DNA of 64,000 bases, from NCBI RefSeq assembly GCF_028368975.1, contig NZ_JAQNDM010000002.1, positions 6,504,425 through 6,568,424 on the forward strand, given 5' to 3'. The notes beneath the pieces were generated by a model. That model ran no database searches, was not told the origin of the DNA, and was given only the letters and a program-made list of their open reading frames with translations. This document shows positions 23,316 to 31,343 of the stretch, piece by piece. The stretch is from Stigmatella ashevillena. GTDB lineage: Bacteria; Myxococcota; Myxococcia; Myxococcales; Myxococcaceae. Each line of letters begins with the position of its first letter. Within the stretch, counting starts at the first letter, position 1. A program made the position numbers and the translations under genes.

Positions 23316-24500
23316 GTGGTGGGCTGGTTACACTGCTTCATATTCGAGGAGGCGGCAGGTTGTCCGCTCCCTCTCCGGATGGTGAAGGAGCTGGGTGTGA
23401 ACTCACCGAAGTTCTCGTTGCTATCCCAAGGCCTGGAGCACGTCCTGGCGGGCCGTTGGGAAGAGGCGGACCGGACGCTCGCCTCCCTCCGGGCCCGGTT
23501 GGATGTCGATGCGCACGCCGAGGACATGCAGTACCTCATCTTCGCCGCGGCGCTCTCCAAGCGCATGGGAGGGGAGGCGGCCACGGAGTTCAATCTCTAC
23601 CGGCGCCGCTTCGAGCAATCCCAGATTGGTCTCTTCAGCCTGCTGGCCTCGAAGCTGCCGTTCGTCTCCATGGCGAGCGCCATCGCCAACGAGATGTTGA
23701 CGGGCTTCATCCGGGGGCAGGAGGCCATCACCGTGCTGGATATCGGCATTGGCCGGGGGTTGCAGGAGGTGGCGCTGCTGGACCGGCTGGCCGCGGCCGA
23801 TGCGTTGCCCCAGCGGATCCACTTCTTCGCGGTGGAGCCGGACCAGGACTCCCTGAACACGGCGCGGGAGGCCCTGAGCGCGGCGGCGCAGCGGCTGGGC
23901 GTCGTGCTGGGCTTCCACGGCGTCGCCTGCGTGGCCGAGGACCTGGGCGAGGAGCAATGGCGCCTTCTGGAGAGCCTGCCCGGGCGCCGGCTCGCCACCG
24001 CGGCCTTCGCCCTGCACCACATCGCCGAGCGGCCCTCGCCGGAGGCGGACGCGCGCGAGGGCTTCTTCCACCGGCTGGCCCGATGGGCCCCGGCGGGCGT
24101 GGTGTTGTGCGAGCCCTGCTCCGACCACCACCGCGTTTCCCTGGAGGAGCGCTTCCAAAACTCCTGGCGCCACTTCTTCTTCATCTTCCAGCTCTTGGAG
24201 GAACTGGACATCTCCCGCCAGGAGAAGAACGCCATCAAGCTGTTCTTCAGCCGCGAGGTGGAGGACATCGTGGGCACCGAGGAGGAGACGCGGCGCTCGG
24301 AGCGGCATGAGCACGTGAGTGCTTGGCTGAATCGGCTGGTCCGCACCGGCTTCCAGCCCGCGCAGGGGTTGGAGCGGGCGTGGCCCGCCGCGCACCCCGC
24401 GATCGCCGTCCGTCCCCACGCCGGTTACGTGGGGCTGGAGTACCGAGAGGAGACCATCGTGGCCATCCTCTGTGCCAGCGCCTCGCCCCCCGCTGCATGA
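23316..24500 (+). CDS. bacterial GRAS-domain protein (Rossmann methyltransferase-like)
   Basis: The 394-residue protein follows the order of plant GRAS proteins. Residues ~95-165 read PFVSMASAIANEML then ITVLDIGIGRGLQEVALL, matching the LHR and VHIID blocks (A-N-x-x-I and VHVIDF-x-x-x-x-G-x-Q). Residues ~245-290 have CEPCSDHHRVSLEERFQNSW, corresponding to the PFYRE region. Residues ~305-345 read SREVEDIVGTEEETRRSERH, then GF, matching REIxNIVxCEGxxRxERHE-x-GF of the SAW region. GRAS folds derive from SAM-dependent methyltransferases and bind small ligands. Bacterial members exist but are little studied. I used the GTG with GGAGGGA six bases upstream; an ATG at 23379 lacks a ribosome site. The stop overlaps the CinA-like start (ATGA). 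Confidence 0.8.
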   Translation: MVGWLHCFIFEEAAGCPLPLRMVKELGVNSPKFSLLSQGLEHVLAGRWEEADRTLASLRARLDVDAHAEDMQYLIFAAALSKRMGGEAATEFNLYRRRFEQSQIGLFSLLASKLPFVSMASAIANEMLTGFIRGQEAITVLDIGIGRGLQEVALLDRLAAADALPQRIHFFAVEPDQDSLNTAREALSAAAQRLGVVLGFHGVACVAEDLGEEQWRLLESLPGRRLATAAFALHHIAERPSPEADAREGFFHRLARWAPAGVVLCEPCSDHHRVSLEERFQNSWRHFFFIFQLLEELDISRQEKNAIKLFFSREVEDIVGTEEETRRSERHEHVSAWLNRLVRTGFQPAQGLERAWPAAHPAIAVRPHAGYVGLEYREETIVAILCASASPPAA

Positions 24501-24997
24501 CGGAGCCCGCGGAGCTGGAAGCGCGGGCCCGGGCCGTGTTGGCGCATTGCCGCGAGGCCCAGATACGGCTGGCCCTCGCCGAGGCCTGCACGGGTGGGCT
24601 CATCGCCGCCAGCCTGACGGCGGTGCCCGGTTCCTCCGCCGTGCTGGAGCGGGCCCTCGTGCCCTACTCCAATGAGTCCAAGGAGGACCTGCTGGGAGTC
24701 CCCAACGCCCTCATGCGGGAGCACGGCGCCGTCAGCGCGGAGGTGGCCCAGGCCATGGCGGAAGGGCTGCTGGCCCGGGCCCCCGTGGAGCTCGCGCTGG
24801 CCGAGACGGGCATCGCCGGCCCGGGGGGAGGCTCTGCCCTCAAGCCGGTGGGGCTCGTCTTCCTCGCGTGGGCCCGCCGGGACGGCGCCGTGAAGGTGGA
24901 ACGGCACGTTTTCCCGGGAGATCGAACGGCGGTGCGCCACGCCGCCGCGGCGCGCGGACTCGCACTCCTCCTTGAGGCTTTCGCGGAAAAGTCGTAG
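24497..24997 (+). CDS. CinA C-terminal-domain amidohydrolase (PncC-like)
   Basis: This 166-residue protein is a stand-alone CinA/PncC domain. It shows LALAEACTGGLIAASLT with the active-site ACTGG, then VPYSNESKEDLLGVP and LAETGIAGPGGGS, the usual S-N-x-x-K and T-G-I-A-G-P-x-G signatures. PncC deamidates nicotinamide mononucleotide to nicotinic acid mononucleotide in pyridine-nucleotide salvage. The start overlaps the stop of the GRAS-domain gene by four bases, so the two are translationally coupled; the functional link is unknown. Confidence 0.9.
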   Translation: MTEPAELEARARAVLAHCREAQIRLALAEACTGGLIAASLTAVPGSSAVLERALVPYSNESKEDLLGVPNALMREHGAVSAEVAQAMAEGLLARAPVELALAETGIAGPGGGSALKPVGLVFLAWARRDGAVKVERHVFPGDRTAVRHAAAARGLALLLEAFAEKS

Positions 24998-25101
24998 AGA
25001 AGGCGAGCGAGGCCTACATGCCCGGCCAGATAGAGTCCGCCGGGGGTGGAAGGTACAGTGGGCCCCTACCACTTCGTCAGACGCTGTGCGGGAGGATCGA
25101 A

Positions 25102-25497
25102 GTGTACGAACTCCAGATCGACAGAGGGCACGCCATCGTGGACTTCATCCTCGATGGCTACATCCGGGTGGAGGAGATGGAGCGGTTCGTCAAGGACTTG
25201 CGAGTCGCCACGCAGAGCCTCACGGGCCGTGAAATCAAAATCAAAGCGGACCTGCGGACCTTCAAACCGGCCTCGCCCGAGGCGGCGCAGATGATTCGCG
25301 AGGTCCAGGAGTTCGGCCTTCGCTCGGGCGTGAAGCGGGTGGCGGAGCTGGTGGAGAGCCAGATTGTCGCGCTTCAGCTCAACCGGCTGGCCCGCGAGAG
25401 CGGTACGGACAAGATTCTCCGGCGTTTCTGGGAAGAGGCCTCGGCGCGCCAGTGGCTCATCCACGGCGACACGGACACGGACGAGACCAAGGCTTGA
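25102..25497 (+). CDS. small alpha/beta protein of unknown function, STAS-like fold suspected
   Basis: The chosen start is a GTG at 25102 with GGGAGGAT eight bases before it; the longer frame from 25018 lacks a ribosome site. The 131-residue product has short beta strands (ELQIDRGHAIVDFIL, EIKIKADLRTF) alternating with amphipathic helices, similar in outline to the STAS/SpoIIAA-like proteins that occur widely in myxobacteria. The protein at 43645 has the same outline. No enzymatic residues stand out. It is convergent with the helicase gene at 25520. Confidence 0.65.
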   Translation: MYELQIDRGHAIVDFILDGYIRVEEMERFVKDLRVATQSLTGREIKIKADLRTFKPASPEAAQMIREVQEFGLRSGVKRVAELVESQIVALQLNRLARESGTDKILRRFWEEASARQWLIHGDTDTDETKA

Positions 25498-25519: not shown

Positions 25520-27622
25520 CTAAGGGCTGGGCAGCAGACGTGAGCGGAGCCCCGACGAGACGACCCACAGCTGGTGGGAGGTGCGGGTGATGGCCACGTG
25601 GAGCTTTCGCCGGGATTCGTCCGCCTGGGGCCAGGCCCGCGCCGTGGCATCCGGGAGGATGACGTAGTCGAACTCGAGCCCCTTGATGCTCTCCACGTCC
25701 GTCACGTCCACGCCGGGCTCGAACGTGAAGCCGCCGTCCAGGACGAGCCGCACGGCGGACATGTCATTCACCACCTTATAGAAGGTGCGGGCCGCTTCCG
25801 GGGTGCTGGCGATGACGGCCACCGAGGCCTTCGGCTCCCGGTCGAGCAGGTCCTTCAGCGCATCGCGCACGAACAGCCAGGCCTGTGCCTCCTCCGGGAA
25901 GTGGTGGAAGCCCACCGGCACGCCTTCACGTCCCATCCGGGGCGAAGCCTCGGGGGCGAGCGGACCGAGCACGTGCCGCGCCAGCTCGATGACGGGCCGG
26001 GGACAGCGGTAGGACACCGAGAGCCGCACGGTGGCCGCGTCCTGGATGCCCAGCTCCGCCAGGGCCGCGGGCCAGCCCGCGAAGCTCGAAGAGGTCTGCT
26101 GCATCTCATCGCCCGCGAGCGTGCAGCTGCGCGTCTTGCCGAGCTGGCGGCCCATCACGGACAGCTCGAAGAGGGAGAAGTCCTCCGCCTCGTCGATGAC
26201 GGCGTGGGCCAGGGGGTCCGTGCCCAGGTGCCCGTGGCGGGCCTTGAGGAAGAGCAGGAGCGGCAGGTCCTCCACGTCCACGGTGTTCGCCAGCGAGTCC
26301 GGCGTGGAGTCCTCGATGGCGAGCCCATCCACCGTCTTCATGGCCTCCGGATCAAACCCATCGAACTCCCGCGTGAGCGGCGTGGCGAGCTGGAGCATGG
26401 TGTGGCGCACCGTGTCCTCGATGGCGGGCCAGGGCACGTCTTCTCTCGAGGTGGTCACCACCTCCTCGAGCAGCGTCCGGTCGGTGAGCAGCTCCGCGAG
26501 CTTGCGGCGCAGACGCTTGAAGCTGAGGTCCGTCAGCTTCTTCTTGCCGAGCCGCTTCTCCAGCACGGGCCGCAGCGCCGGGTGGCGCTTGAGCTTCGAG
26601 GCGAGGGCGGGCTTGTCGGAGGAGAGCGCGATGGACTTCAGCCCGAAGGCCGTGCAGGCCGAGGCATAGGCCCACGCGTCCAGCGTCTCCACGGAGACGT
26701 TGCGCAGCTCCAGCGGCGCGAGCAAGCGCCGGGACAGCCGCGCCAGCCCCTCTTCGGGCACCACCACCTTCATGCGGGAGGGGGCCGAGGCGGCCCTCAG
26801 GTTGAAGGTCAGCTGCGCCAGCCGGTGCAGGGCCACCGTCGTCTTGCCGCTGCCGGCGCTGCCCAGCACGAGCAGGGGCTTTTCCGGATGGGTCTGGAGC
26901 GCCTCGAACTGCTCGGTGTCGAGCTGGGCGGTGATGTCGAACCGGGCCGCGCGCCCCGCCTCGCCACTGCCAGTCCCCAGGCTGCCCGCGCGCACCGCCG
27001 TCCCCGCGCCTCCCGCGAGGGAGGACGTGGCCAGGGCGCCCACCTCGTGCCACTCGCCATTGGGGACGCGCTCGAGGTGGAGCGTGCCCGCGCGGATGCG
27101 GGTGAGCACCCCGCGCTCGATGACCACCAGCCGCCGGGCCTCCACTACCCCCTCGGACAGCCGCTCGCCGAACCACTCCTCGTAGTCGTCGCCCTCCGCG
27201 TATCCATAGAAGACGCGCGCCACGGGGGCGAACCGCCAGTCGATGATGCGCACGCTGCTGGCCGCATGGGTGAAGGTGGTCCGCCCCAGCAGGTACTCGT
27301 TCGTGCCACCCTCGTGCTTGCGCAGCCGCAGGTGCGCGAAGTAGGGCGTGTGAGGCTCGGGCAGTTGGGCGGTGTCCTTGCGCTCCAGGATGGCGCGCTC
27401 GGTGTCCATCTGCTGGAACAGCGCGGGCAGATCGCTCTCCACGGCGGTGCTCGCCTCGTCGCGCAGGTGGGTGAGCCGTGCCAGTGCCTCGCTCCGGCCC
27501 CGTTCCCGTCCGGCCTGCTGGCGCGCGGCCTCGATGGCCAGGAGCACCCGCTTCAGCAGGGCCTCCTCCTCGGCGATGAGGGCCCGCGCCTGCTCGCTGA
27601 GGCCTTCGGTCGGCTCGTTCAT
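25520..27622 (-). CDS. HelD/UvrD-like superfamily 1 helicase
   Basis: This 700-residue protein has the SF1A helicase layout interrupted by inserts: a coiled N-terminus, Walker A LGSAGSGKTTVALHRL (residues ~265-280), motif II AVIDEAEDFS, SVSYRCPRPVIEL, then near the C-terminus SIKGLEFDYVILPD and HVAITRTSHQLWV. An N-terminal coiled coil plus a WRFAPVARVFYGY region is typical of HelD-type proteins that release RNA polymerase from DNA, rather than DNA-repair UvrD. The start is an ATG with no strong ribosome site. It is divergent from the large membrane protein at 27747. Confidence 0.82.
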   Translation of the reverse strand: MNEPTEGLSEQARALIAEEEALLKRVLLAIEAARQQAGRERGRSEALARLTHLRDEASTAVESDLPALFQQMDTERAILERKDTAQLPEPHTPYFAHLRLRKHEGGTNEYLLGRTTFTHAASSVRIIDWRFAPVARVFYGYAEGDDYEEWFGERLSEGVVEARRLVVIERGVLTRIRAGTLHLERVPNGEWHEVGALATSSLAGGAGTAVRAGSLGTGSGEAGRAARFDITAQLDTEQFEALQTHPEKPLLVLGSAGSGKTTVALHRLAQLTFNLRAASAPSRMKVVVPEEGLARLSRRLLAPLELRNVSVETLDAWAYASACTAFGLKSIALSSDKPALASKLKRHPALRPVLEKRLGKKKLTDLSFKRLRRKLAELLTDRTLLEEVVTTSREDVPWPAIEDTVRHTMLQLATPLTREFDGFDPEAMKTVDGLAIEDSTPDSLANTVDVEDLPLLLFLKARHGHLGTDPLAHAVIDEAEDFSLFELSVMGRQLGKTRSCTLAGDEMQQTSSSFAGWPAALAELGIQDAATVRLSVSYRCPRPVIELARHVLGPLAPEASPRMGREGVPVGFHHFPEEAQAWLFVRDALKDLLDREPKASVAVIASTPEAARTFYKVVNDMSAVRLVLDGGFTFEPGVDVTDVESIKGLEFDYVILPDATARAWPQADESRRKLHVAITRTSHQLWVVSSGLRSRLLPSP

Positions 27623-30358: not shown

Positions 30359-30485
30359 TGGGTCACGGGCCGAGTGCCTGGCGCGCGTGCTTTGAGCGCC
30401 CGCAACGATTTCGAAGGGACGGGGTTTCGAGTCATCGCGGCGGCCAAACGCGGCTGTGCCGATGCTCAGACAGGAAACCAACGCC

Positions 30486-31343
30486 ATGACGCTGATCCGT
30501 TCTCGTTTTGTGGGTGCAGTCCTTTGTTCCTCTCTCCTCATGGGCAGCGTGGGCTGTGGCGATGAGGCCTCCAGCGAGGAAGCGCTCATCGTGGGAGAGG
30601 CCACAGCGGCCCTTACCAGCTCCGAGGAGGACGGCGAGGCGGGCGCGGAGGAGTCGGTGGGCTATGCGAGTGACGCGGAGCTGACGGCCGCCGCGGAAGA
30701 GGAGGCGGAGGCCACGCAGCCGGTGCCCGAAGAGGCGGGCAGCGTGTGTGATTTCGAGGCGAAGAAGCAGCAGGTGCGTGACGAGTACGACGCTGACGGG
30801 GATGGGAGCCTGAGCCGGAGCGAGCTGGCCACGTTGAAGAGGGAGCTCGATTTCACGCCGGTGCGTCCGCGCTTCGCACGCTTCGCGTGGCGTCTGCGCA
30901 CGAGCGCCTTCCTGCGCATCCGCTGGGTGTTCGACGAGAACGGGGACCGGCGGTTGTCAGAGGAGGAGCGCGCGGCGCTCGTGGATTCCTTCGAGGCGCG
31001 CTGCACCCGGCTGCGCCAGCAGGCCCTGGCCGCCTTTGACGCGAATGGCGACGGCACGTTGGAGGCGTCCGAGCGGGAGGCCGCGCGCCAGGCGGCCCGT
31101 GCGCGGCTGGTGGCGAAGTACCAGGAGGTGCTGGCCGAGTACGACAGCAACGGCAGTGGCACGCTGGATGTGGCCGAGCGGGCGCAGCTGCGCGCGGATC
31201 TCCTCGCTCAGGCTCGGAACCGGCGCGCGGCGGTCTTCGCGCAGTACGACACGAACGACGATGGCATGCTGAGCGCCGAGGAGAAGCAGGTGCTCGCGGC
31301 CGCCATCCGCCAGCGCATCGAGGAAGGCCGCTCGGCCAACTAA
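30486..31343 (+). CDS. EF-hand calcium-binding lipoprotein
   Basis: This 285-residue protein has a lipoprotein signal peptide ending MGSVGC (Cys20 or so), an acidic, disordered region to ~residue 85, then five EF-hand loops: DADGDGSLSRSE, DENGDRRLSEEE, DANGDGTLEASE, DSNGSGTLDVAE and DTNDDGMLSAEE. The loops keep the Asp at positions 1, 3 and 5 and Glu at 12 or nearly so. It would bind calcium at the cell surface, plausibly as a sensor or buffer for calcium-dependent exopolysaccharide or motility functions. The ATG at 30486 is preceded by AGGAAA; an ATG at 30456 is less likely. Confidence 0.88.
   Translation: MTLIRSRFVGAVLCSSLLMGSVGCGDEASSEEALIVGEATAALTSSEEDGEAGAEESVGYASDAELTAAAEEEAEATQPVPEEAGSVCDFEAKKQQVRDEYDADGDGSLSRSELATLKRELDFTPVRPRFARFAWRLRTSAFLRIRWVFDENGDRRLSEEERAALVDSFEARCTRLRQQALAAFDANGDGTLEASEREAARQAARARLVAKYQEVLAEYDSNGSGTLDVAERAQLRADLLAQARNRRAAVFAQYDTNDDGMLSAEEKQVLAAAIRQRIEEGRSAN

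Follow-up and report, generated by a model that had tools for sequence, protein, structure and literature searches.

The window, a 64,000-nt stretch of the 10.95 Mb genome of Stigmatella ashevillena (G000:C2:6504425–6568424; host family Myxococcaceae), carries three consecutive genes on its forward strand. The first (23397..24500, +) encodes a probable GRAS-family methyltransferase of 367 aa with the SAM motif LDIGIGRG. It is followed by a stand-alone CinA/PncC-like gene (24497..24997, +; 166 aa), assigned by PF02464 and an AlphaFold model and predicted to lack the NMN-deamidase nucleophile, and by a third gene for a SpoIIAA-like small protein of 131 aa (25102..25497, +). The GRAS open reading frame was first read as 23316–24500 (+), giving a 394-residue protein; the frame is there, and its start most likely lies at GTG 23397, yielding 367 rather than 394 residues, with a probable Shine–Dalgarno sequence AAGGAG (23385..23390, +) 6 nt upstream and homologues starting at the same place. 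As originally predicted, the GRAS stop and the CinA start overlap in an ATGA (24497..24500, +, from the reading-frame positions), and the CinA frame runs from 24497 to its stop at 24997 (+). The mechanical reading frame of the third gene opens at 25018, with a probable start at GTG 25102 preceded by the Shine–Dalgarno sequence GGGAGG at 25090–25095. Near the cassette lie genes for a KaiC-like ATPase (PF06745; 17928–19469, −) and a HelD-like helicase (25520–27622, −); further along, a predicted protein (30456–31343, +) displays several D-x-D-x-D/N-G repeats that by eye resemble calcium-binding EF hands.

On sequence grounds, the product of the first gene is a genuine GRAS protein whose SAM motif is intact. 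It scores 123.9 bits against the Pfam GRAS profile PF03514 (cut-off 27), with residues 35–357 aligned to profile positions 4–335 of 374. Among PDB sequences matching at E ≤ 1, 12 of 13 are plant GRAS proteins (DELLA, SCL3, SCL7, SCR and NSP2; best E 3e-13), the thirteenth being a chance match (E 0.37), and the best plant match reaches 53 bits. The predicted R-E-x-x-x-I-V motif is present as SREVEDIVG, and ERHEHVSAW, like it aligned to DELLA 1, supplies the predicted E-R-H-E motif with four rather than three residues before the tryptophan, a spacing common to the aligned DELLA protein. Both are motifs of the GRAS PFYRE/SAW region. GRAS-specific blocks are thus present, the GRAS identity was borne out, and a generic class I methyltransferase is ruled out by the PF03514 score together with the plant GRAS matches in the PDB. 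Plant contamination is likewise excluded, since the same neighbor recurs in 44 genomes. No GRAS relative was found in one scan of viral contigs, made with a viral origin in mind. Nothing was found that ties the protein to gibberellin or any other hormone.

The D-x-G-x-G SAM motif is kept in all 44 GRAS copies that form a pair with CinA. Within these copies D115, G117 and G119 are invariant, as is an acidic residue (D/E) at position 147, and G121 is kept in 42/44; Q123, His207, His208 and Glu239 are also conserved throughout. Family membership and the SAM motif indicate that the GRAS protein is probably an AdoMet-dependent class I methyltransferase, with a small molecule as its probable substrate.

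The pairing of GRAS with CinA recurs across the family. A PF03514 search detected GRAS in 45 of 96 Myxococcaceae genomes, distributed over 5 of 26 genera, and in none of 14 control genomes. We compared 51 GRAS places, namely the window and 50 fetched loci. In 44 of the 51 the next gene downstream, on the same strand, is CinA, and 44 of the 45 GRAS-bearing genomes hold the pair. The seven GRAS places lacking CinA are second copies (L075–L080) from six genomes in which the pair is present elsewhere and the single GRAS gene (L054) of genome G003. In 36/44 pairs, the window's among them, the GRAS stop is overlapped by a start codon whose frame reads through into CinA; the other eight have no such overlap. 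Three of the 36 (L051, L052 and L070) may have their real start elsewhere, because the conserved part of CinA begins 75–177 bases further downstream. The SpoIIAA-like gene follows CinA in every testable locus (39/39), the contigs of the remaining 5 of 44 ending inside CinA. Genes flanking the pair vary between genera, and the pair itself spans five of them: in the window's genus an FKBP gene lies upstream in 6/6 loci and a HelD-like gene downstream in 4/6, whereas the upstream neighbors in g3 loci are KaiC-like genes and genes that by eye resemble acyl ligases. These loci define a cassette of at least three genes, GRAS, CinA-like and SpoIIAA-like. Recurrence of the pair in other genomes, an outcome on which the original prediction depended, was therefore observed, and within Myxococcaceae only: none of 30 stretches from outside the family (3.6–16 kb each; 27 distinct GRAS loci, given the duplicate places L140/L146, L131/L153 and L138/L159) contains CinA. 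Separately, g19 genomes contain a second, shorter GRAS type (L075, L076, L077, L079 and L080), followed by a conserved gene of ~560–590 aa and no CinA.

The third gene product is predicted to adopt a SpoIIAA/STAS fold. Its AlphaFold model (pLDDT 78.8) best matches PDB entry 2q3l, a DUF3478/SpoIIAA-like protein (E 1.9e-5, TM 0.73), with SpoIIAA and RsbV-type proteins next. The likeness lies in the predicted fold, whereas identity to 2q3l, itself uncharacterized, is 19%. At E ≤ 1, PF11964 picks up 18 of 21 third-gene proteins, the best with 2.3e-7 and the window's own not included; the member from genome G040 attains 26.7 bits against a cut-off of 25. Assignment to the autoinducer-binding domain PF03472 (12.8 bits, below the cut-off) was rejected in favor of the fold match.

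The CinA-like protein closely resembles single-domain NMN deamidases. It scores 172.8 bits against PF02464, and its AlphaFold model (pLDDT 92.9) superimposes on A. tumefaciens CinA (2a9s) with 0.8–0.9 Å rmsd and a TM score of 0.91. With PncC/CinA deamidases of this type (A. tumefaciens 2A9S and E. coli PncC) it shares the fold, the phosphate-binding residues and the pocket lysine; it differs in carrying Ala for Ser31, Glu for Val104 and Pro at position 57, and in its pairing with GRAS. In the window, alignments place Ala30 (codon GCC, 24584..24586, +; context AEACTGG) at the position of catalytic Ser31 of A. tumefaciens CinA, whose role is described in PMC5384747. Across 52 CinAs of this lineage the position is occupied by Ala in 49, Ser in 2 and Asp in 1. 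By contrast, each of the pocket residues E30, G46, S48, Y58, K63, T105 and R145 is kept in 52/52. Glu replaces Val104 in all 52 (Glu103 in the window; codon 24803..24805, +), forming the lineage signature E-TGIAGP, and position 57 (Pro56 in the window) is Pro in all 52 and T, V or S in five Ser-type copies. Ser and Val occur together only in two copies from genome G051 and in three full-length CinAs examined, one of them from the window's genome. Of 195 genomes of the phylum searched for the seven-residue motif E-TGIAGP, 59 contain it, and these belong to 9 genera of a single family, CinA identity being confirmed for part of the places and the second place in G071 excepted; a reversed control pattern gave no match in the same 195 genomes. 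Two family-wide searches covered 92 genomes, with no more than 46 or 40 candidates scored per genome. The CinA tree and counts leave out truncated or damaged cassette CinAs (L035, L041, L056, L059, L060, L066 and L071), near copies (L098–L100, all Ala), contig-end fragments (L106, L107, L111 and L112) and a decayed second copy in G034 (L091). The L060 cassette CinA (2441–2800), from a metagenome-assembled genome, lacks an internal stretch.

The CinA-like gene is not decaying, as dN/dS values of 0.08–0.31 over 10 pairs reveal purifying selection. Biochemistry of related enzymes illuminates what the substitution may mean. In A. tumefaciens CinA, the S31A, K63A, Y58A and R145A mutants are inactive and S31/K63 is the favored catalytic dyad (PMC5384747); E. 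coli PncC S29A is inactive and binds NMN with a Kd of 37–64 μM and NaMN with 12–59 μM (PMC8231969). By analogy with these mutants, the lineage is predicted to lack Ser-dependent NMN deamidation and likely binds NMN or NaMN. The retained NMN/NaMN pocket and the loss of the amide-attacking serine together argue that the protein would bind without hydrolyzing. Ser is nevertheless tolerated, so that the evidence falls short of a strictly non-catalytic role for every member: 2 of 37 cassette CinAs carry it (L044 and L048), and their differing codons (TCC and TCG), set against Ala GCG in four relatives inspected, indicate that Ser probably returned twice.

This CinA lineage also occurs outside the pair. 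Eighteen genomes hold a lineage CinA with no adjoining GRAS; 17 of them have no GRAS match at all, and G003 has GRAS elsewhere. Among these CinAs, the contigs of G074 and G080 begin within 350 bases upstream of the gene. In G019 and G023, which lack a GRAS match, CinA pieces sit at contig ends, so that GRAS may have been lost in assembly there. CinA and the SpoIIAA-like gene are both kept without adjoining GRAS in G003, G040 and G079. An intact Ser31 had been expected in such CinAs; the expectation failed, as the 15 of the 18 placed in the tree comprise 14 with Ala and 1 with Asp. Loss of the serine is therefore older than, or independent of, the pairing. On the CinA tree the GRAS label changes 8 times, at least 5 of the changes being forced by well-supported branches, and a single clade of GRAS-bearing CinAs is rejected (p 7e-7). 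Since the lineage occurs without GRAS and its GRAS-bearing members do not form one clade, the loss is not an adaptation to GRAS. A single clade of all lineage CinAs excluding G051 is not rejected (p 0.24). The unconstrained tree nests the two Ser- and Val-bearing G051 copies within the lineage on weakly supported branches; that placement would imply that the active residues can be regained. The base of the tree is unsure, because the long G001 branch meets the outgroup. CinAs of genus g7 (L088, L089 and L090) nest within those of g19, a pattern that transfer of CinA by itself, with GRAS staying behind, would produce. Dependence is thus one-sided: this GRAS type is nearly always found with CinA, and CinA needs no GRAS. 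Its persistence where GRAS is absent means that the CinA-like protein must have a use of its own too.

In G040, which bears the code of the window's genus, a swapped METHYLTRANSFERASE occupies the GRAS slot between FKBP and CinA. The gene there encodes a non-GRAS class I methyltransferase (PF08241, 52.3 bits, cut-off 21.2) and overlaps CinA by 4 bp. In this one case the slot seems to require a methyltransferase, suggesting that methyl transfer is the function needed. No comparable replacement gene was noticed by eye at 16 other gene-called loci.

GRAS genes in other bacteria keep different company. In the order of Taibaiella, 7 of 8 GRAS-bearing genomes among 298 searched (L154–L160) have an aminotransferase gene after GRAS, assigned by PF00155 in the Taibaiella copy and HisC-like by eye. 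In the order of Xanthocytophaga, 2 of 12 GRAS-bearing genomes among 291 searched encode GRAS and an aminotransferase domain as one fused protein. The fusions (L141 436–2595, +; L142 1492–3639, −) place PF00155 N-terminal to GRAS, and their GRAS parts score 304–318 bits on PF03514, every other bacterial copy seen scoring at most 137; the L141 part matches plant SCL7 at E 4e-46 (161 bits), compared with 53 bits for the window protein and its best plant match. This company of Bacteroidota GRAS supports a small-molecule reading in general and points to no particular substrate. Within a 396-genome sample of the phylum of Streptosporangium, GRAS was found in the starting genome only. Three genomes have a phosphotriesterase-family gene 15 bp after GRAS (L144, L147 and L148; PF02126 for L144). 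A ~130-aa gene lies beside GRAS at L143, L145, L146, L149, L150 and L151, three of them co-directional with GRAS and three convergent to it; four of these neighbors were tested, and one (L149) matches SpoIIAA-like at 19.8 bits, below the cut-off. Membership of these ~130-aa genes, from the order of Xanthocytophaga, in the third-gene family gained no support from a profile comparison (probability 0.2%, E 0.38). Histidine kinase and response regulator genes lie upstream of GRAS in Ectobacillus panaciterrae (L130 2769–6065) and Taibaiella (L138 898–5939), both by Pfam, and by eye in a relative (L158).

Two components of this system are already known, namely bacterial GRAS methylases and inactive PncC lineages. 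Bacterial GRAS methyltransferases were reportedly described by Zhang, Iyer and Aravind in 2012 (Bioinformatics 28:2407); like them, the window protein is a GRAS domain with an AdoMet motif in a bacterium, and its cassette adds a nucleophile-less CinA and a SpoIIAA-like gene. An origin of GRAS from "a bacterial methylase" is cited in PMC6232258. PncC lineages 2.2.1.2 (YfaY type), 2.2.2.2 (YdeJ type) and the eukaryotic 2.2.3.4 are called inactive in PMC3855486. According to that paper, 2.2.1.2 and 2.2.3.4 share the Ser31-to-Ala change with the CinA-like lineage, and the inactive lineages have lost further pocket residues, whereas seven other pocket residues are invariant here. The engineered NMN-binding probe E. 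coli PncC S29A carries the same single change in an otherwise retained pocket (PMC8231969); the CinA-like protein differs in being natural, conserved over a bacterial family and altered at further positions, its binding being a prediction. Our literature search, whose coverage did not extend to the 2012 bacterial-GRAS paper, found no paper joining a GRAS domain with CinA, and the matches listed showed neither the conserved cassette nor a CinA lineage with changed nucleophile and kept pocket. No GRAS pair appeared among the matches listed for CinA, Myxococcus xanthus and nicotinamide, and no substrate of a bacterial GRAS protein among the matches listed in the literature searches.

We tentatively favor, at a little short of an even chance, a small-molecule methyltransferase that uses SAM and is co-produced with a pseudo-amidase, which would bind pyridine nucleotides and sense or hold its ligand, plus a SpoIIAA-like protein; ligand, substrate and complex are the conjectural parts. 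In this proposal the GRAS protein would use AdoMet to methylate what is probably a small molecule, and the CinA-like protein would probably be produced alongside it through translational coupling. The latter would most likely bind a pyridine mononucleotide, or a phosphorylated ribosyl compound like it, with no hydrolysis, either sensing the ligand on behalf of the methyltransferase or holding it for that enzyme. The SpoIIAA-like protein may serve as a small binding or switch protein in the unit. A bolder and rather improbable version takes the CinA-like protein to be a natural pyridine-mononucleotide receptor, an NMN deamidase minus its nucleophile, that gates the GRAS methyltransferase.

It is equally unlikely, in our judgment, that the lineage has instead acquired new catalysis by Lys62 and the lineage-specific Glu103, serving the pathway of the methyltransferase and possibly using a different phosphorylated ribosyl compound as substrate. 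The invariance of Glu103 and Pro56 (52/52) where the tested NMN-deamidase nucleophile is gone in 50/52 would fit such a change, as would the retained Lys, Tyr and Arg and the purifying selection. However, the adjacent Thr104 is expected to be turned toward the pocket, in which case Glu103 may be directed outward, and PncC chemistry is not known to use Glu at position 103.

Less probable still is the pathway of the original prediction, in which the CinA-like protein removes the amide of a small molecule after GRAS has modified it, now by a Ser-free mechanism with water, Lys and Thr. PMC4246079 proposes, for T. thermophilus CinA, that NMN is deamidated by Lys301-activated water with Thr340. Counterparts of both residues are present in the lineage CinAs, so the Lys and Thr of this asparaginase-like mechanism are kept; two lineage members carry Ser, and the pairing is conserved. 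Against amide removal, Ala occupies the serine position in 49/52 lineage CinAs, and two enzymes no longer deamidate NMN once mutated to S31A or S29A (PMC5384747 and PMC8231969), which counts against this component of the prediction.

A similarly low probability attaches to the absence of any working link, whereby GRAS came to lie next to a CinA-like gene that was there before it, and the two have transcription and translation in common and nothing more. The 18 genomes with CinA but no adjoining GRAS and the 8 label changes on the CinA tree, at least 5 of them forced, are what such a history would leave. Chance adjacency fits poorly with a pair held by 44/45 GRAS-bearing genomes in differing surroundings across five genera, mostly with a 4-bp overlap, and with the other methyltransferase that fills the GRAS slot in G040. 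That the GRAS protein is a non-enzymatic regulator like its plant homologues is very improbable: homology to plant GRAS regulators and a neighbor whose SpoIIAA-like fold is common among regulators speak for it, but the SAM motif is present in 44/44 copies, whereas tested plant GRAS domains lack SAM motifs and SAM binding (PMC5873383), and the replacement in G040 is a generic methyltransferase.

Under the favored reading of a methyltransferase with a ligand-binding pseudo-amidase, a conserved neighbor with a known ligand pocket narrows the notion of a small-molecule methylase to testable ligands, namely NMN, NaMN and their relatives. The CinA-like lineage is a clear natural example of how an enzyme probably became a binder through change of a single residue, and the change is that of a mutant built for an NMN biosensor (PMC8231969). 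Were the CinA-like protein indeed a receptor gating the methyltransferase, a bacterial GRAS domain would already work with a small-molecule-sensing partner, and methylation would be tied to NAD turnover.
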